Of a DNA stretch of 64,000 nucleotides, positions 25,150-39,450 are shown one piece after another (positions within the stretch are counted from its first letter, which is position 1; every line of letters begins with the position of its first letter). Made by a program: the position numbers and the translations under genes. The DNA is from Siphonodentalium dalli. Its lineage: Eukaryota > Mollusca > Scaphopoda > Gadilida > Siphonodentaliidae. The notes beneath the pieces are model-generated. The model saw nothing but the letters and a program-made list of their open reading frames with translations, did no database searches and was not told the origin of the DNA. The stretch spans positions 137,598,351 to 137,662,350 of the forward strand of contig CP136062.1 of assembly GCA_032622095.1 (NCBI GenBank), read 5' to 3'.

Positions 25150-27395
25150 ATTTTTAATTGATGCACATTCTTCTCTATGATATACACAATGCACAATCTA
25201 ATCGTGTTTGGATGAGAGATGTGGAGGAGCGGGATTTGTTTAGTCGCCGATTACTACCAAATTTATACATACCAATCTTCATGAGATCGGAAGTCTAATG
25301 GTGTGCCTTAAAGCTGTCAAGAGTGCGTGGCGTCATTCCAGTTGGGGGTGCACTGAATGGGAGAGGGGCACACAAATTGATAACAATTATTTTCAGCGCC
25401 GATTTCCACAAAGTTGACACACATTCTTCTCCATGATCTGAGGAATTTAAATATGCCAAAAAGTGGCGCCGTTCGATCCAGGGTTGCACGGAAGGCGAGA
25501 GGGGCACCAAAATTTATATAAATATTTTTAGAGCCAATATCCACAAAATTTATGCATATTTTTCCCATGATACGATGAATTTAATCGTATGATTTAAATC
25601 GTATGATTTAAAGACGCAAAATTATCGCCGCTTGGGTGAGAGATGGGGGGGGGGGGCTCTAAATTTGTTAAAGAATTTGTTTAGTCGCAGATTGCCACCA
25701 AACTTACACGCAATCTTTTCTAAACTATACCATGAGTCTAATAGTGTTGTTTAAAGATGTTAACAGTGGCACTGTTCGAATCAGGGTGCACGGAGGGGCC
25801 AGGGAGAGGGACGCCAAAATTTATAACAAAAATAATATGTTTAGCGACGATTTTCACCAAATTGGCGCACATTCTTCTCCATGATATAAGAATCTAATCG
25901 TGTGATTTAAAGATGCTAAATTGGTGCCATTTGGATGATAAGAATGTGTTTAGTCGCGGTTGCAATGCACCAAACGTTTACATAATAATCTCCATGATAT
26001 CAGGAGTCTAATTTTGTGGCTTAAAGCTGTAAAAAGTGGCGCTATTCGAGTCAGGGGTGTACGGAAGGTGCACCAAAATTGATAAACATAATGTTAGCGC
26101 CGATTTCAACAAAATTGATACACATTCTTATCCGTGATATGCGGAATCTAAGGGTGTGGTTTAGAGATGTCAAAAATGGCACCGCTCGAGTCATGGATGC
26201 ACGGATGGGCATCAAAATTGATAATAAAAAATTTCCACAAATATTATACATAATCATCTCCATGATATCGTGTCATTCGAGAGAGGCACCAACATTGATT
26301 TAAAAAACCTATTCAAGCGTCGATTTCCACCAAATTAATACATATTCTTCTCCATGATACGAGGAATCTAATCGTTGATTTAAAGACGCAAAATTGGTCC
26401 CGCTTGGGTGAGAGATGAGGGCACTAAATTTGATACGAATTTGTTTAGTCGCCGATTTCCACCAATGTTTTATATAGTCATCTTCATAATCAGTCTTAAT
26501 TGTGTGGTTTAATGATGTCAAAAGTGGTGCCACTTGAGTCATGGATATGTAATGGAGGGTCACCAAATATACTTACAACAATATGTTTATAGTGCCGAAC
26601 GAGGAATCAAATCGTGAGGGTCAAAGATGTCACATTTGCGAATGCCTGTCTCTGTTCTATATAACTTCACGGGCGACCATCAAGATGACGAGGAAGATAA
26701 TGGTGCGGGTAAACATTTTCTAAAGTGACGCTGTTGGTGTTGAGGACATAGAAGGGGGTTGGGCAGCAAGAATTATTTTTGTCCCCGATTTCCACCAAAA
26801 TTATACATAATCATCTCCATGATATCGCGTCGTTCGAGTCAGGGGTACGCGGAAGGGGAGAGAGGCACCAAAATTGATTTAAAAGACGTCGATTTCCACC
26901 AAAATTGATACATATTCTTCTCCATGATATATCGTTTGATTTAAAGACGCAAAATTGGTGCCGTTTGTTTGAGAGATGGGGGCACTAAATTTGATAAGAA
27001 TTTGTTTAGTTGCCGATTGCCACCAAACTTATACACAATCATCTCCATGCTATCAGGAATCTAATGGTGTGGTTTAATTATGTCAAAATTGGCATCGTTC
27101 GTGTCATGAATGAGGAGGGGAGGGGCACCAACGCCGATAGAAATATGTTTAGCACTAATTTCCAACAAATTCATACGTCATCCACCAATTATACGAGGAA
27201 TCAAATCATGTGGATTAAATTCGCCACATTTGGTGCCATTTGGTTCAGGGATGGAGAGAGCAGAGACACTAACGTTGATAAGAATATTTTTGTCGCCAAT
27301 ATCCACCAGTTATATTTTGTCATCTCCATAATTCGTTCTAAGGAGTTTTTGGCGTTCATATTTCACAACCTCGAAACAATTTAATGGTGACTTAA
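25150..27395. repeat. Degenerate tandem repeat of about 130 bp
   Basis: About 17 diverged units. Each repeats a set of phrases in the same order: GATTTCCACCAAA, then TTCTCCATGATAT, then GTGTGGTTTAAAGATGTC, then a GTTCGAGTCAGGG-like block and a GGGGCACCAAA block. Spacing varies from about 90 to 160 bp. Short ORFs within it come from the repeat. A lone unit lies at 28,535-28,650. Confidence 0.8.
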
Positions 27396-29606
27396 GTCAC
27401 TTGAACAATTATATCGTCTCAACTGTCATATTTGTTTGGGGACAGGAATCAGGGCGTTCATATAGTGAGCTAGCAAAAAAAAAAACAGATAAACAGAAGA
27501 AATCATTAAAAGTATATTTATCATTCTATTTAAGAGATACATATATTCTTGCAAAATGAGGGACCTTGAACCACAAGAGTATGGCACGTTAGAATGGTTC
27601 ATGTATTATAACACAATTGAGTCTGTCCCATTCAAAATATTTTCCACAAAAAAGATAATTTGTCAAGAGATGTGCAAATGTATAGAAGGCCTGTTCAAAA
27701 AATATTGGTCACATGTGGTGTGCAGTAAAATATAGTTTTTTCTGAGATAAAATGAAACACAGTCAGTAGCACACGACTTTTCAGGATCACCCAACACTGG
27801 AATCTAACAAGGGTACATCCTCTCATTACAGGGGGTTTCTTTGATTTTATTAGAACATACTCACAGCTTAACATAAACAACGCAAAATCTCGCTCTGTGT
27901 CGGGCTCTTGTAGCTGATATATAGCAAACTTTATATTAAACTGAGAATAATTAGCCAGAATAGCACCACGAACAGAGCGGTACCTGGGCATTTCTTTAAA
28001 ACATCTGTAGCTTCATGGAGATATGATAACAATGTGACCTCAAAATCTTAGTCTAACCCACTAGATTGATTTATACATCTCTGTATGTAAAACTCGTCGT
28101 GTGTCATTTTTGTGAACTAATGTATTCATGATGTTCATGTTAGGATCCCATTAGAAAATATTAAAAACAAACAAACGTCAATTGAACCACGTCGACTGTA
28201 CGATTTCAAAAATGATAAACTTTGTAAATAAATACTTCTTTATTGGTGGGACGAATTAATCGCGATGAACAAAATGACAATCACTCCGACAAAGGCGGGC
28301 CATGCACTACTTATAATCCATGTATAAGTTTTATGATGCCACTTGGATATACAAATTATGAGAATGCGTGCAACACTTTGAACAAGAGTATCCTCTATTC
28401 CCATCAAATATCTGCAGCAGAGGGTTTCACATCACTTTAACCTATAAGTGTGTGTCCCAAATAATCTTTTAAATATCACACCTTTGCTGATAGTCTCGTA
28501 CTAAAGCCAGCTATATGATATTGGGATAGTGATATTTCTACCATTGTTTTATATAGTCATCTGCATAATGAGTCTTGGTTTAATGATGTCAAAAGCGGCG
28601 CCACTTGAGTCATGGATAGGCAATGGAGGGTCACCAAAAACTTATTCCAATATCTTAGCTAGCTGGTGGTAGTACGAGCAGACTTGGACTACTTTCCTGA
28701 GTAAAATTTGGAACTCCCAACATTTTAAGGGGCGAACAATTTGATCATATAAACGGTTGGCACAAACCCTTTGTCGAATCTGAAATGTCCCATGTATGAC
28801 TCCCGAATACCAGTTAACAGGACATGTGAATTCGGCGCATACTTTTAGCCCACCGAATCCCGTGCACCAGAAAAGGGAGGTACACCCTCTCCACGTTTTG
28901 TCGTATTCCTAGTGATCAAAATAGGTCGTTAAATACATAGTTGATATGAATCGGAAGGACCTGTTGAATATCGAAGTGAAAGAAATTACCATAATAAAAC
29001 GCACTCCTGATGATCTCGATCGCCAATTTTTTCATGGGTGTTTTTTGGCTATATGAGATCACCGCGTTTGGTTAAATTTTCGCAATGACAATCGGCAAAA
29101 GAACTTCAGGTTGTGGTCAAGATGAACTCTTCATTTGCTTTGAAATGTGGGTCATTCCGATGAAGAGTGTTGCCTTTTTGTATACCGATAGTTGGTGGTT
29201 AGGAGTAGCCACATTGGACATTCATTGTCTGGATGCAGCAATATATAATATTCAAACACTTAATACTCAATACCATATTTTATGTTGGTTAGAGACTAAG
29301 TATAACAACAGTTTCTTCAAAAAATATTCTTCAAAAAATATATTTTATTGTTGTCAAATTAGTAGCACAAATCTATAACCGCAATAAAATTAAGCTGATT
29401 TTTTATTCCATACTTTGTTTTTTTAAGACGAAGTAATTTAGTGAGAATGTAAACATAATTGACCGCACATTACATTTTTAAAAAGGTTTTGAAAACTAAA
29501 ATGATTTTATTTAAGAATTAATGTAGTGATTTTGTATGTTATTGGGAGGGTACGGTGTTGTGGTTGTTGGGGCACATTGTCAGCCCAATATAAGTTTTTC
29601 AAGCAC
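27396..29606. other. No recognised gene; lone satellite unit
   Basis: A 98-codon minus ORF (27,695-27,991) has a plausible composition but no family I recognise. A single unit of the 25-27-kb repeat lies at 28,535-28,650. Nothing else supported. Confidence 0.4.
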
Positions 29607-29850
29607 TTAGTAACGATTACGTAATCGATGTATATAACTGGCTTCAGATGAAATGTGGCTGAACTTTTAAAAGCGCGCACAAGCTAGTATTCTGCTGACC
29701 GCTTTTAGTGAATATATATAGGTCAACAAGATGTGACGTCGTGATCGTGTTACGGTGTGTGTTAATGGGCTATGAAACGGGTGGAGAAATTGGCAGTTGA
29801 CCAATCACCGAACAGGATTTAGTGTTACACAGACGGGTTATGTATATAAA
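29607..29850 (+). repeat. Dispersed repeat X, copy 1
   Basis: Matches 35,965-36,205 in the same orientation, including ACTGGCTTCAGATG, GCTGAACTTTTAAAAGC and GGCAGTTGACCAATCACC, with several small indels. Confidence 0.7.
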
Positions 29851-30181
29851 TATTATATTATGTAATCGCAATGTTATAGTTGGAAACGTTGCAATCTGCA
29901 TGGTATTTAGACTTTATCTTTCATAATTATCGAGCCCAGTGTGCAGCATACATAATTATGTTCATGTTGCACCTATCATTCATGGGCAGCAGGATTACGA
30001 CCAGCTAGGTCATGCTGCTCCTGTGCAATAATATACTTTTGTTTAATATTTTGTTAATGTATTATATATTATTGTGCAAATACACATATCTATCTATTTC
30101 TTTTTACACAATCTGCCAAAAATTGAGACTAGCCCACGCAGCACATTAAGTCAGACCAATGTAAAAAATTCCAAACTCTTA

Positions 30182-30814
30182 GGTGACACTCCACAGTAGG
30201 GGTGAATTTCTTGTAAAAAAGAGTCACCCATATTGGGCCCCATGTATATATACCATGGGCCAAGGGAAGTTTGGTTATGGAATGCTAAATTTTTTCAAGG
30301 TGTCCTAAAGTTTTTATAAATATAGCCAGAGGGGGCGTGGTTTGGTGTGTAGTGGTCAACTTGGGATTGCGGGAAACAGTGGCTGTAAATTTGAAATCGT
30401 GTTTTTTCACTTGAAAATTTGTCATCTGCTTTCAAAACTCCAAATATTTCAATTCTAACGGCGAAAGTCCTCAATTTTTTCATATTGCATAGCTAAGCCA
30501 GTATTTTTGTGATACTGTTAGGTTAGTAAAGCCAAAAAAATCTGATTTTCATGTTATATGGTCAGAAAATGGGCCATTTTGGAGTGATTTTTGCATGAAA
30601 AATGCAGTTTTTGCTGTGCAGATCAAGGGGCATAACTCTATTTTTCGATACCGACACTAAAAAAAATTAAGGACACAGGAAAGTCCACAATGCATGCATT
30701 GCATACATATATAACTTAATGGGTTTATAACAATAAATGGCTGTTGAAGTTGCCATCTGAATTACACCATGCATGTTTTTCAAGGGATCGGGTGAGAAAC
30801 TGTGGAGTGTCACC
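30182..30814. mobile_element. MITE G, copy A
   Basis: A 633-bp element with ends GGTGACACTCCACAGT and GAAACTGTGGAGTGTCACC. Flanks are CTTA on the left and TTAA on the right, compatible with an eroded TTAA target. Differs from copy B by a 14-bp loss next to the left end and by very few substitutions. No coding function; the 62-codon minus ORF is identical in both copies simply because the copies are young. Confidence 0.85.
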
Positions 30815-30818
30815 TTAA

Positions 30819-32304
30819 AGCTCAAGGAAAACCACTCATAAATCAATTTGTCCCCACATCCGGTTGTAACTATAGCAATCTGATTGTCTACAACGCCACG
30901 TATACATCACCATGTCACCCGTCACCCTTGACAGCGGGGTATAAGAGGACGTGCGGCTAACATCGGGGATATATGAGCATGTGAAACATGGGGGGGGGGG
31001 GTATATGAATCACCCTGGAAGTTGAAGTTGAACTGGCCGTTTCTGCCAATCATGACGTTGCTCTCGCATGCCGAATTTGATGTCACCTTAATGCCGGATA
31101 CATAGGTCAGCTACTGTTATCTCTGGCAACATTGTAGCGTACATGGGGATTTAATATATTAACCTGTATGTCTCTTTTTGAACCCCTCGGCTCCACCTTG
31201 CGGTTCAAAATCGACATCCAGATATTAAATCTCCAATTGTACCGCCGATGTTGCCGAAGATAACTAATAATATCACTACTGTCTTAGTGTCTATCCAGTA
31301 TCCTCACTAAAGAATTTAGTGGAAGTTTCCTTGCTTATATTCCCCTTTCATATCTATATGGAGTCAACATTTGTGTGAAATAGGTATATTTCCAATTATG
31401 AATTGCCATCGTGCAGCCCCTGGGGGAGGGGCGCATTAATATGACAAATTATCTGACACTGGCCACTGCATGAACATTCATCAGTGAATATCAACCCGAG
31501 AATGTACCCACTAGTGTTAGAACACGGTGATGTTGATGCACTGATATGCCATGTTGACATCAGTATTTATTACACACCTCATGATTCTTATTAATACCAG
31601 TATGCAAATACATATAGAGCTCCTCTAAATAAAAAGAGTGATACGAAACCTATTATCTGATTAATTTTTTATGCATCACAACATTATTGTCCCATGACAC
31701 GGTACTCCAATTGAATAATGACAAAAAACCAGGGGTGTGGATATCCCACCCTGCCCACCCCCACCCCGACTTTGGTAAAAAATCTTCAACAGTTTGAAAT
31801 TTGATGCCTGCCATTGGTCTGGTTCAAGGGGGGGGGGTGGGTTTATTATGAAATTTGTTTAACTTTTATACCAGCAACCCCCCCCCCCCCCACCGGAACA
31901 GAGACTCTAGCTACATCCCTGCATTATACCAATCTGAACAATGATGCAATGTTAAAATGCTTTATTGAATGAATTAAAATAATGTGTTATGAGCTCTAAA
32001 TTCAGAAATAGTTTTCTGTGGTCAACAAAAAATGGTGTGTAATAAATAATGAACAGCACATTTATGTACATGTGCAGCATTGCCTGAGAGTTTTGTTCTG
32101 TGTGCTACTATTTGAACCTAGGGACTTGTAGTGTCACACTGAACAAAAAACTCTTGTGATAATGATGTATACATATACATTCCTGTGTCTTTCTACATAT
32201 TTACCTAATAGCACTGATGAACTGCAATATGCAGTCAGCGCATCGGCTTCATCCTGATCTGATACTAGTGCCCGTGTGTTCTGTTTTATATTTGCAGCTT
32301 CAGC
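30819..32304. other. No gene; G/C homopolymers
   Basis: Long G or C runs at about 30,989-31,000, 31,829-31,838 and 31,878-31,891. Possible 5' leader of the endonuclease gene at the right end. No TIR for the neighbouring Mutator-like element could be found. Confidence 0.4.
32281..32297 (+). promoter_or_regulatory. Possible 3' splice site before endonuclease ATG
   Basis: CTGTTTTATATTTGCAG ends 7 bp before the ATG at 32,305, like an intron end within the 5' leader. The upstream exon was not identified. Confidence 0.4.
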
Positions 32305-32709
32305 ATGGCTCCAGTCCGACGACACAATATATTCCAGATCAAATTGTGCCAAGATGATGTACATCGGTTTCAGAGGTACTTGTGGCTGCACAGTATCGAT
32401 GTTGCAGATTGTGTTTTTTGGGATGGAAAACCAAATAAAGATGGCTATGGTTTCTTTAACCTCACCTTTATGGACAGTGGTACGTGGGTGAAGAAGAAGG
32501 TCTTGGTGCACCGGCTGGCTTATTACTTGCACCACAACCAGCCGCCGTTGAGTGATTCGAAGCATGTTTCCCACCTCTGCCATAAGAAGATGTGCATCAA
32601 CGTTTGTCATTTGAGTTTGGAACCGGGGCGAGTTAATGGAAAGAGACAGGACTGCAAGCGGGATGGGGTGTGTCGACATCACAGAGGTTACCCTGACTGC
32701 CTCTTGTGA
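32305..32709 (+). CDS. His-Cys box endonuclease, I-PpoI-like
   Basis: An intact 134-residue ORF with a complete His-Cys box (His-Me finger) nuclease core. By position against I-PpoI I place catalytic His90 (in VSHLCH) and the Mg-binding Asn111 (in GRVNGKRQ). A first zinc site is formed by Cys36, Cys92, Cys97 and His102. A second is formed by Cys117, Cys123, His125 and Cys132. All are present at the family's spacing, with only the last gaps altered. Such enzymes cut DNA, classically as homing endonucleases in rDNA introns; its role in an animal mobile locus is unknown. It ends 137 bp from, and converges on, the Mutator-like transposase. AATAAA lies at about 32,827. The 206-codon ORF on the other strand is a shadow. 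Confidence 0.8.
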   Translation: MAPVRRHNIFQIKLCQDDVHRFQRYLWLHSIDVADCVFWDGKPNKDGYGFFNLTFMDSGTWVKKKVLVHRLAYYLHHNQPPLSDSKHVSHLCHKKMCINVCHLSLEPGRVNGKRQDCKRDGVCRHHRGYPDCLL

Positions 32710-32845
32710 GATGTATGGTGGGTACATTTTTATGTTTTGTACAGAGAATAACACATTATATGCTCCTATATAATATTTATCTATTTTTATACAAAGGAAC
32801 TATTTAGGTGCATGATATACATGTTGAATAAAAAAATAAAACATC

Positions 32846-34756
32846 CTACGGCCTGATCCTTGTATTCATTCCATATGAATGTTCATCTTTTTGAACTATT
32901 GAACTGTTTGAGTAGAATGAGCCTTCTGCAGTTGCTCTGTTGTATTTCATTTTACGGCTCAAATAGCGCTTCTGCTTCGACTCAAATGTAGATTTGTATT
33001 CTCTGTGGTATAATCCCCTCCGATCTTTCTTTTTCATCTGCACGTTCATTATATCATTTTTTCCACACTTCAGTCCAATATCTTTAGCTAAAAGAAGGGT
33101 TGATTTTCCTGTGCCAAAGGTAGCCGAATGAAGAGCAGACTGACATAGAGCGGTGAAATTTCTTGTCCATGTAGTATTTTTTGGTGCATAGGTGAATATT
33201 CGCTGATGAAGGATTTCATTCTTGTTGGTGGTGAAGAGTTGGGAAAGTTTGCTGATGGTGTCGGGAACTGCAAATTTATTTATGATGCATTGGATCTTTA
33301 ATTTATCCTTTTTCACTAAATTTAGATGTTTGCCGTGAGGTAGATGCCTGGCACTGTATGATTTTAAGTGTGCAATGCAAACCAATGATGATTGACGACA
33401 GTTCTGGTGGTTATTGGAAAAACAGGGTAAAACATTTTTTGTGGCTGCAATGAATCTTTTGATGAATGAATCTTCCGTATGGATTGTTCTTCTGGTACGA
33501 ACTAGTTCTGTCTGGATCCGCCTTCGGAAGCTTCCAGACAGCTTGGCCATGTATATAGGTTTGTCAATTCCATTCATCGCTGTACATAGTTTGATTTTTT
33601 AAATATTTTTGTGCAATGTTCGCATTTTATGCACATAGCAGTGGTAATGCTTTATTTTGTTTCCAGATTTTTTTGAATATTCTCTTATTGCTTTTCCCAT
33701 TTGAGTACTGCAATCAGTGGTAACTGATCTCACTCCAATGATTTCTTTTCTTTCTATTTTCTGTAAATGATTTTTTATTGATGCTGATTCACTGGAAGAA
33801 ATTGATTTCAATGTTGGATAGTTTCTGCGGCATCCTTTACTTTCGCCCATATCATGTGTGCAATTTCTTTTATTGCATAGTTTTGTACATACATCAAGTG
33901 ATAAGGGAATTTTTTTTGAAGTTACATGTTCAGTTGCTACTGACACAGCTTGCGTCCCTGCCTCATACCCTGTTTGAGGGCGGTTGTTGTATGCTGTGTC
34001 AATAGCAACATCTGCCTTGGCTTCAGTTCCAGAAAGCCGCATTACATCTCCAACAAATCTCTGATTCTCTTCCAAGACACCTTCATTCTGTTTGATGACA
34101 CCATCAGCTATATTGTTCAATCTGGTATGGAGTAATGATTGGGCTGGTGATTGAATGTTTAAACATGATAAAATCATGCGAATATCTGATGGTCCGATCT
34201 TTGTCTTCATCATCGCTAAACAAAGACGGTCATTTAGGCTACCTTTGGCGGGCCCGCGTCTTTTAGCTTCTGACACTGAAGAAAGGGCATGTGGCAATCC
34301 TTGGTAACTACAAAACCTACATTTGAGCGAAGCAGAAACACACAAACCTTGTCTCTTTGATAGAACAATCCTGGGCTCAGGCCTATCGCACAAATTTCCA
34401 TGGTCTGAAAAAAACCCTCCATATAGTTCATCCAGTAACGGGATATTAACTATGACGTTTTCGCTTTCTTTGAACTGCGTATCAAGTGAAGTATCATCAT
34501 CATGTGCCTTCGGTCTCAATTTTGTTGGCACAAGATATTCCGGCATCAATCGGTTTGCTTCACTGAATAATACCGGATCTGGTCTCTTTAAAATTTCAAC
34601 TGCTGGCCTCTTGACAATTTCTGATTCCTCCACATCAAGTGTATTCATTCCTCGAACATTATTTCCCTTGTTGAAAAATCCCGTGTTCTTTTCTCCCTTT
34701 TTTGGTCTTCCTCTTTTAAGTTTAATCCTAGGTGCCATTTTTAACATATTTAACAT
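32846..34756 (-). pseudogene. Mutator-like transposase with one in-frame stop
   Basis: One reading frame of about 636 codons, broken only by TAA at 33,599-33,601. Residues 1-385 contain an AT-hook-like KRGRPKK (about residue 14; the Met at 34,738 may be the true start). They also hold a CRFC zinc pair (146/149), an AIDTAYNN block with a candidate first catalytic Asp (253), a Cys-rich CTKLCNKRNCTH stretch, and VTTDC with the second Asp (348). After the stop, about 250 residues continue with HQRIFTYAPKNTTWTRNF and HSATFGTGKSTLLLA. These resemble the metazoan Mutator-like transposase family, where the third acidic residue is expected. Readthrough or a polymorphic stop cannot be excluded. No TIRs or target duplication were identified. 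Confidence 0.72.
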
Positions 34757-35313
34757 TCATATAACAAAGGGGAATAACTCATATGGGGGAAACTCCCTTT
34801 CTTTCCATGGTTACCAACGATGTCATTTAACTGTTACACACACAGTATGCTGTTATTGTCATTGGGGAATTTCCCTGCTCCCATAGTTACCTATTTTGCC
34901 CATGAGGTCACACCCTTAGCTACTCAGATAGCTGTTTCCATGTTCAGGTGCCCCTTGTTTACCAAAAAAGCCACACCATGAAGCATAACAGTTAAATAAA
35001 TGAGACAACTATGGTGCTGGATGGTTATTATGGTGCTGGGTGGTTCGCGAAGGCAATCAGTATTATAAGAAGTGGCATATGTGGTGTATTAGAGTTATAG
35101 CACATAAAAATATCCAAAATGACGTTATGAACGTCACACATAACAGCACTGTCTCTCTGCATAGGATAACAGACAAACATGCACCTAAACCTAGACAGCC
35201 ATTGCTCAACATTGTTATAAGAAGCATGGCATGTCATATATCATTTTAATCGACATAGCCCATAGAATGTAGCCAAAGGGGAATTGTTGTGATTTGATAG
35301 GACTTGGATTTCC
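34757..35313. other. Upstream side of the transposase
   Basis: Contains a short repeat (TATGGTGCTGG twice at about 35,010-35,040). No TIR recognised. Confidence 0.35.
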
Positions 35314-35317
35314 TTAA

Positions 35318-35964
35318 GGTGACACTCCACAGTTTCGAATGATCAGTAGGGGTGAATTTCTTGTAAAAAAGAGTCACCCATATTGGGCCCCATGTATATA
35401 TACCATGGGCCAAGGGAAGTTTGGTTATGGAATGCTAAATTTTTTCAAGGTGTCCTAAAGTTTTTATAAATATAGCCAGAGGGGGCGTGGTTTGGTGTGT
35501 AGTGGTCAACTTGGGATTGCGGGAAACAGTGGCTGTAAATTTGAAATCGTGTTTTTTCACTTGAAAATTTGTCATCTGCTTTCAAAACTCCAAATATTTC
35601 AATTCTAACGGCGAAAGTCCTCAATTTTTTCATATTGCATAGCTAAGCCAGTATTTTTGTGATACTGTTAGGTTAGTAAAGCCAAAAAAATCTGATTTTC
35701 ATGTTATATGGTCAGAAAATGGGCCATTTTGGAGTGATTTTTGCATGAAAAATGCAGTTTTTGGTGTGCAGATCAAGGGGCATAACTCTATTTTTCGATA
35801 CCGACACTAAAAAAAATTAAGGACACAGGAAAGTCCACAATGCATGCATTGCATACATATATAACTTAATGGGTTTATAACAATAAATGGCTGTTGAAGT
35901 TGCCACCTGAATTACACCATGCATGTTTTTCAAGGGATCGGGTGAGAAACTGTGGAGTGTCACC
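35318..35964. mobile_element. MITE G, copy B
   Basis: Full-length 647-bp copy with 19-bp inverted ends GGTGACACTCCACAGTTTC. TTAA lies on the left (35,314-35,317) and TTAG on the right (35,965-35,968). Same orientation as copy A, 5.1 kb away. Inserted at the edge of repeat X copy 2. Confidence 0.88.
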
Positions 35965-36205
35965 TTAGCTATGATAACGTGATCGATATAAATTACTGGC
36001 TTCAGATGCAATTCGGCTGAACTTTTAAAAGCACGCCCAATTATTCTGCTGACCGCGTTTAATCATTAGTTCAGATTAGGTCAACAGTTTTATAAAGTAA
36101 CCTCCTGTTCGTGTTGCACTCTGTGCACTATTGGGCGACCCAGTTGGCAGTTGACCAATCACCAAACAGGATTTAGTGTAACACAGAAGGGCTATGTAAA
36201 TATAC
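35965..36205 (+). repeat. Dispersed repeat X, copy 2
   Basis: Partner of 29,607-29,850; begins exactly at the MITE junction. Confidence 0.7.
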
Positions 36206-37220: not shown

Positions 37221-39450
37221 GATGAAATTGATTGCCCCTTACTTGATGAGATTACCCCTTACTGTAATGAGATTACCCCTTATTGTGATGAGATTACCCC
37301 TTATTGTGATGAGATTACCCCTTACTGTGATGAGATTACCCTTACTGTGATGAGATTACCCTTATTGTGATGAGATTACCCCTTACTGTGACAAGATTAC
37401 CCCTTACTGTGATGAGATTACCCCTTACTGTGATGAGATTACCCCTTACTGTGATGAGATTACCCCTTACTGTGATGAGATTACCCTTACTGTGATGAGA
37501 TTACCCTTACTGTGATGAGATTACCCCTTACTGTGATGAGATTACCCCTTACTGTGATGCGATTACCCCTTACTGTAATGAGATTACCCTTACTGTGATG
37601 AGATTACCCTTACTGTGATGCGATTACCCCTTACTGTGATGAGATTACCCCTTACTGTAATGAGATTACCCTTACTGTGATGAGATTACTCCTTACTGTG
37701 ATGAGAATACCCTTACTGTGATGAGATTACCCTTACTGTGATGAGATTACCCCTTACTGTGATGAGATTACCCCTGACTGTGATGCGATTACTCATTACT
37801 GTGATGAGATTACTCCTTACTGTGATGAGATTACCCATTACTGTGATGAGATTACCCTTACTGTGATGAGATTACCCTTACTGTGATGAGATTACTCCTT
37901 ACTGTGATATTACCCTTACTTTGATGAGATTACCCCTTACTGTGATGAGATTACCCCTTACTGTGATGAGATTACCCTTACTGTGATGAGATTACCCCTT
38001 ACTGTGATGAGATTACCCCTTACTGTGATGCGATTACCCCTTACTGTGATGAGATTACCCTTACTGTGATGAGATTACCCTTACTGTGATGCGATTACCA
38101 CTTACTGTGATGAGATTACCCCTTACTGTAATGAGATTACCCTTACTGTGATGAGATTACTCCTTACTGTGATGAGAATACCCTTACTGTGATGAGATTA
38201 CCCTTACTGTGATGAGATTACCCCTTACTGTGATGAGATTACCCCTGACTGTGATGCGATTACTCATTACTGTGATGAGATTACTCCTTACTGTGATGAG
38301 ATTACCCATTACTGTGATGAGATTACCCTTACTGTGATGAGATTACCCTTACTGTGATGAGATTACTCCTTACTGTGATATTACCCTTACTTTGATGAGA
38401 TTACCCCTTACTGTGATGAGATTACCCCTTACTGTGATGAGATTACCCTTACTGTGATGTGATTATCCCTTACTGTGATGAGAGATTACCCTTACTGTGA
38501 TGAGATTACCCTTACTGTGATGAGATTACCCTTACTGTGGTGAGATTACCCTTACTGTGATGAGATTACCCTTACTGTGATGATATTACCCCTTACTGTG
38601 ATGAGATTACTCCTTACTGTGATGCGATTACCCCTTACTGTGATGAGATTACTCCTTACTGTGATGAGATTACCCCTTACTGTGATGAGATTACCCCTTA
38701 CTGTGATGTGATGAGATTACTCCTTATTGTGATGAGATTACCCTTACTGTGATGAGATTACCCTTACTGTGATGAGATTACCCTTACTGTGATGAGATTA
38801 CCCTTAATGTGATGATATTACCCTTACTGTGATGAGATTACCCCTTACTGTAATGAGATTACCCTTACTGTGATAAGATTACCCTTACTGTGATGAGATT
38901 ACCCCTTACTGTGATGAGATTACCCTTACTATGATGAGATTACCCCTTACTGTGATGAGATTACCCCTTACTGTGATGAGATTACCCCTTACTATGATGA
39001 GATTACCCCTTACTATGATGAGATTACCCCTTACTGTGATGAGATTGCCCCTACAATGATGAGATTACCCCTTACTGTGATGAGATTACCCTTACTGTGA
39101 TGAGATTGCCCCTTACTATGATGAGATTACCCTTACTGTGATGAGATTACCCTTACTGTGATGAGATTACTCCTTACTGTGATGAGATTACCCTTACTGT
39201 GATGAGATTACCCTTACTGTGATGAGATTACCCCTTACTGTGATGAGATTACCCCTTACTGTGATGAGATTACTCATTACTGTGATGAGATTACCCTTAC
39301 TGTGATGAGATTACCCCTTACTGTGATGAGATTACCCCTTACTGTGATGAGATTACTCCTTACTGTGATGAGATTACCCTTACTTTGATGAGATTACTCC
39401 TTACTGTGATGAGATTACCCTTACGGTTATGAGATTGCCACTTACTGTGA
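37221..39450 (+). repeat. 2.2-kb minisatellite, 20-21-bp unit
   Basis: More than a hundred units of GATGAGATTACCCCTTACTGT and a one-base-shorter form, with scattered variants (GCGATT, ACTCC). A block beginning GAGAATACCC at 37,703 is repeated at about 38,174, showing a higher-order duplication of about 471 bp. It lies between the two alternative terminal exons of the P4HTM-like gene. No spacers, so it is not a CRISPR array. Confidence 0.95.

Follow-up and report, generated by a model that had tools for sequence, protein, structure and literature searches.

What are a gene for a His-Cys box homing-type nuclease and a transposase gene doing tail to tail in the genome of the scaphopod Siphonodentalium dalli, and is the arrangement a new kind of mobile element? 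The window analysed here, a stretch of 64,000 nucleotides from contig CP136062.1, contains such a pair, and a first-pass annotation had inferred that the two genes form a single two-gene animal transposon that would be new. We are confident that a single DNA transposon of the KolobokP lineage, composite-like in build, carries both genes; it consists of long terminal direct repeat, interior and long terminal direct repeat (LTDR-INT-LTDR) and is present here as a decayed copy. An element of this kind has already been published, under the name KolobokP (PMC9587614).

Anatomy of the element and its two genes

Without its duplications the element runs from 30182 to 35964, well beyond the interval first assigned to the gene pair (32305-34756). 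With them it occupies 30179-35967 and consists of a TTA (30179-30181), a 633-bp repeat, a 4503-bp interior, a 647-bp repeat and a second TTA (35965-35967), so that TTA stands on both outer flanks. The left LTDR (30182-30814, plus strand) carries its own terminal inverted repeats (TIRs), GGTGACACTCCACAG and CTGTGGAGTGTCACC, and is shorter than the right one, with a small deletion close to its start. The right LTDR (35318-35964, plus strand) has the TIRs GGTGACACTCCACAGTTTC ... GAAACTGTGGAGTGTCACC. In a self-comparison the two are 99.7% identical across 624 bp; both begin with GGTGACACTCCACAG and finish with CTGTGGAGTGTCACC, each thus having short inverted repeats of its own. Between them the interior (30815-35317) has the tips TTAAAGCTC... 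and ...TTTCCTTAA. The surroundings are repetitive as well: 29606-29848, upstream of the element, is 72% similar to 35964-36202, directly downstream of it; 37236-39429 is dense in tandem repeats whose unit measures about 20-21 bp; and 26017-28638 holds interspersed short repeats of several families.

The nuclease gene (32305-32709, plus strand) has an open frame of 134 aa and matches PF05551 with an E value of 1e-12 and 48.8 bits (cut-off 27). Across 15 aligned nucleases His90 and Asn111 are invariant, as are C36, C92, C97, H102, C117 and C123, while H126 and C132 are nearly so. The catalytic pair and both zinc sites that had been read from this one copy are therefore conserved in its relatives, and the features of a His-Cys box (the His, the Asn and two zinc sites) are present by sequence in this lineage. 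The assignment of residues to the two zincs follows I-PpoI. Two residues of the window copy differ, F51 (Y) and W61 (R), when it is set beside the copies at loci L001, L002, L004 and L005. A profile built from the 15 nucleases finds the I-PpoI chains in the PDB with an E value of 4.9e-10. The window nuclease as a single sequence had no match in a PDB search, and a fold search placed I-PpoI on top, yet with E values of only 0.03-0.16; on these sequence comparisons the family profile is stronger evidence for kinship with I-PpoI than either. The nuclease gene thus stands as a real one, and the conserved I-PpoI residues suggest that its product cleaves DNA. It resembles I-PpoI and other His-Cys box homing endonucleases in its catalytic His and Asn and in its Cys/His zinc-site positions. 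Unlike I-PpoI, it is borne by a DNA transposon and not by an rDNA group I intron.

On the opposite strand lies a Kolobok-type transposase frame (32846-34756, minus strand) of 636 codons with one in-frame stop, at codon 386 (33599-33601). Its part from 33599 to 34756 (minus strand) matches PF20700 with an E value of 1.6e-30. After the stop at codon 386 the frame stays open to 32846, so the window copy is broken. Counted to the end of the interrupted frame, 136 bp separate the convergent stops, within one base of the 137 bp first given. At nine other loci of the window family (L001, L002, L004-L010) the frame is intact at 636 codons in two (L002 and L005) and interrupted by stops, shifts or gaps in the other seven, including L007, where a break also lies at or near codon 386. 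A C/DxxH motif, read by eye, is present in all eight aligned transposases; the motif is common to hAT, P, MuDR and Dada too (PMC9587614). The type of the transposase (DDD/E) and its role are those suggested by its family membership.

Dispersed copies and the pairing of the two genes

With 31900-35100 as query, seven further full-length matches of 95-100% identity were found on contigs C2, C4 and C8. The order LTDR-INT-LTDR is seen in L001, in L002/L003 (an array of two units), in L006 and in L007, with 3-bp duplications of TGA, TAT, TAA and TAT, respectively. L004/L005, on C8, is also a two-unit array; it has lost an LTDR and some interior sequence at its joint, and its outer left end is incomplete. 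L008-L010 are more diverged, broken copies. When the right LTDR served as query, at least 48 matching stretches were found (40 of 957 candidates scored), and all eight single LTDR insertions that were examined have a 3-bp duplication; two of these eight duplicate one another, and two end in an altered TIR base. Among the nuclease matches listed, 50 of 149 fall in 14 same-strand groups with a spacing below 7 kb, one of which, a cluster of short frames at 298.49 Mb of C3, may not be KolobokP. It comprises five short PF05551 matches in 31 kb (C3:298479082-298509604), of which three are spaced at about 2.7 kb, and its open frames measure 70-76 aa. All counts for the genome are minimum figures, and a partner that seems to be missing may be an unscored one, since scoring covered part of the candidates (150 of 390 for the nuclease, 114 of 668 for PF20700).

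The pairing of the two genes is not peculiar to the window family. From 149 PF05551 matches, 26 loci (L011-L036) were chosen to span the range of ORF lengths, not at random, and in 24 of them a related transposase is convergent with the nuclease, counting L022, where it is present as a fragment only; the paired nucleases reach down to 28% identity with that of the window. Direct-repeat pairs surround the genes in 19 of the 26. No LTDR pair was found in L018 (an INT-INT array), L022, L024, L029, L030 and L033, and L027 has only a 119-bp repeat. LTDR-type ends with their own TIRs occur in other families too, with repeats of 451-470 bp (L011, L016, L019, L020, L021, L023, L031 and L034) or longer ones (657 bp in L015, 649 bp in L026). 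The duplication measures 3 bp in L015, in the 161-aa family (two insertions, read by eye) and in the family of the window, and 4 bp in L011, L023 and L031; no clean one was seen in L016, L021 or L034. Taken from the transposase side, at least 115 PF20700 matches were divided, after the list was seen, between E values of 2.8e-48 and 1.7e-47, into 64 stronger and 51 weaker ones. A scored nuclease lies within 4 kb of 37 of the 51 weaker matches, convergent in all 37, and of none of the 64 stronger; for the remaining 14 weaker matches there was no scored nuclease within that distance.

These observations bear on whether the nuclease has any part in the element. Chance adjacency of the two genes was rejected on the dispersed near-identical copies and on the pairing in divergent families, and on the shared copies and the 24 convergent pairs the earlier inference of one mobile element holds. 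A nuclease gene without a part in the element, whether as passenger or as nested insertion, is very improbable: such a gene would fit the two loci of 26 (L030 and L033) that have no recognisable transposase beside the nuclease in the stretch fetched, but convergent pairing in the other 24, with nucleases as divergent as they are, speaks against it, as does the invariance of the catalytic His and Asn in the 15 aligned proteins. At L033 (C5:111745400-111751200) the nuclease frame (ORF 1176-1577) is open with the conserved residues present, neither a recognisable transposase nor long direct repeats were found in the 5.8 kb covered, and it is possibly an orphan or a copy kept by the host.

Kinship with KolobokP

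KolobokP was described by Kojima and Bao (2022) in seven animal phyla, with bivalves the richest (PMC9587614), and the name was found in that paper only in the literature searched. Because the anatomy of the window element matches theirs point by point, the suggestion of a new two-gene transposon could not be upheld. The published elements have the order LTDR-INT-LTDR, with GG...CC ends and TIRs of the form 5'-RR...YY-3' on each LTDR, as here; their LTDRs fall into length classes of about 450 and 660 bp, into which the 633 and 647 bp of the window fit; their transposase and I-PpoI-like nuclease lie convergent on opposite strands, as in the window; their solo LTDRs and multimers, (LTDR-INT)n-LTDR, are also found in this genome; their INT-INT joints with 3-4 bp lost resemble those found here; and their duplications of 3-5 bp (3-4 or 4-5) compare with 3 or 4 bp (PMC9587614). 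Against the published description, as far as it was available to us, no structural difference was found, the window copy having its stop in the transposase (PMC9587614).

The same genome provides a canonical Kolobok for comparison. The L037 family resembles the window element in its PF20700 transposase and its GG ends. It is unlike it in having TTAA duplications (two copies read) and the TIR GGCCTATGGGAA...; in a self-comparison it shows only an inverted repeat of 42 bp and no direct one, and no scored nuclease lies within 4 kb. The duplication in the window is TTA, of 3 bp, and not the 4-bp TTAA of a canonical Kolobok, a departure that published KolobokP shares (PMC9587614); the element is filed under KolobokP as published. 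The reading as a genuine Mutator-like (MULE) element bounded by outer TIRs, as the first-pass annotation had it, deserves next to no credence. PF20700 does carry the Pfam name 'Mutator', but that name need not mean a MULE, because the same profile matches the L037 family with its TTAA duplications. Instead of outer TIRs and 8-11-bp duplications, the element has direct repeats some 650 bp long, both bearing short TIRs of their own, together with 3-bp duplications, which fits KolobokP. A MULE was rejected on the length of the duplications, 3 or 4 bp where 8-11 bp had been expected, and the ends GG...CC also speak against one.

A further possible link to canonical Kolobok lies in the ends. The L037 family (L037-L042, with TTAA duplications) has GCCTATGGGAA at its tip, and GCCTATGG(G)AA occurs about 20-25 bp inside the right ends of the LTDRs of 450-bp families (L011, L016, L019, L020 and L034). 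At first this suggested a shared transposase site or a trace of an 'inside-out' origin. Since a second canonical family (L061/L062) ends differently from the L037 family and the ends of a third (L059/L060) lie beyond the sequence reached, we leave it as a lead.

Mechanism and a candidate target for the nuclease

How might such an element spread? The transposase, given the role of its family, would act on the short TIRs at the ends of each LTDR and could mobilise the composite in full or one LTDR by itself. It would leave duplications of 3 bp where LTDRs measure about 650 bp, and of 4 bp in some of the families with about 450 bp. The nuclease, if its conserved I-PpoI residues are a guide, would cut both strands inside the element, and the break would be repaired from another LTDR copy; the outcome would be tandem arrays that share LTDRs, solo LTDRs and matching repeats. 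Kojima and Bao likewise propose transposition together with nuclease-induced unequal crossover, and place the KolobokP cut inside the LTDR, or at TIR termini abutted on a circle (PMC9587614).

The borders between interior and LTDR offer another candidate. The nuclease may cut there, next to the GG, with a 4-nt 3' overhang in the manner of I-PpoI, and not inside the LTDR; cutting at the border would remove LTDRs or start recombination at that point. That the natural target is this border, together with the TIR-spacer-TIR joint formed in LTDR dimers or circles, is a tentative idea and on balance an unlikely one. The I-PpoI site is CTCTCTTAAGGTAGC (PMC6294500), and its portion CTCTCTTAA followed by GGTAGC resembles the interior/repeat borders. 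The border of the 192-aa family, TTTTCCTTTAA followed by GGTAGCAATAC, contains TTAA followed by GGTAGC exactly, and that of the window is TTTCCTTAA followed by GGTGACAC. CTWWA or CTWWAA precedes GG at 13 of 17 inner borders and at 4 of 31 outer flanks, a motif picked after the data were seen, and the mean match to CTCTCTTAA is 4.7 of 9 at inner borders against 3.4 of 9 at outer flanks, although the families so compared share descent and an insertion does not provide two independent flanks. For the inner set a single locus was used for each family end, which gave 17 borders from nine families (L032 giving one border only); the outer set leaves aside L004/L005, L008-L010, L014, L016, L019-L021, L025, L026, L028 and L034-L036, as well as a duplicate solo and the right ends of two solos. 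Two Kolobok families of the same genome that are not of the P type have ends starting GGCCTA and GGGGAT, not GGTNRC, which favours the border; against it, the TIR tip of the 138-aa family is GGAATC, not GGT. In the main text of the KolobokP paper, neither the border motif nor its likeness to the I-PpoI site appears (PMC9587614).

The INT-INT joints can be read both ways. A pattern search, which detects only joints with both tips intact, found one 4-nt spacer kept in 14 of 14 joints of the 139-aa family, 13 with TAAA (that of the left border) and one with TTAA (that of the right). All 14 lie in one array region of 77 kb (C3:153396950-153474343), about 4 kb apart where adjacent, and, because a single base distinguishes TAAA from TTAA, they may represent one or two events. 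The single joint found in the 161-aa family lost exactly 4 bp, though its duplications are of 3 bp, but a joint of the 134-aa family lost 3 bp, not 4; one 4-nt spacer is thus kept in two of the three families with INT-INT joints, one of them a family with 3-bp duplications. The search returned no joints in the window family or the 192-aa family, and the joint of the C8 array of the window family (L004/L005) lost more than 4 bp. Among the families whose LTDRs measure about 450 bp, including the 139-aa family (L031), the duplications are also of 4 bp where read, so their 4-nt joints cannot separate the models. Kojima and Bao ascribe such joints to excision by the transposase (PMC9587614).

Taken further, the cut at the border could reflect an ancestral rDNA specificity for TTAA followed by GGTAGC that the nuclease has kept, one half-site having been built into the ends of the element; this, too, we consider improbable. 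From a Kolobok target of TTAA type and a TIR tip of GGTNRC, an I-PpoI-like site would arise anew at the two INT/LTDR borders and wherever a TIR-TTAA-TIR joint forms, and cuts at such borders and joints, with 4-nt 3' overhangs, would drive the loss of LTDRs, the joining of interiors and the growth of arrays. A search for 28S rDNA as a target of the nuclease, with a 30-base 28S pattern and exact matching only, gave no match in the genome, which speaks neither for nor against such a target. If the nuclease does cut at the borders, its target would be directly testable with short synthetic DNA, and the union of a TTAA-targeting transposon lineage with an enzyme that leaves a TTAA overhang would be explained. 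The pairing of a transposase with a homing-type nuclease, of which KolobokP is the published case, would give an animal transposon two possible ways to spread.
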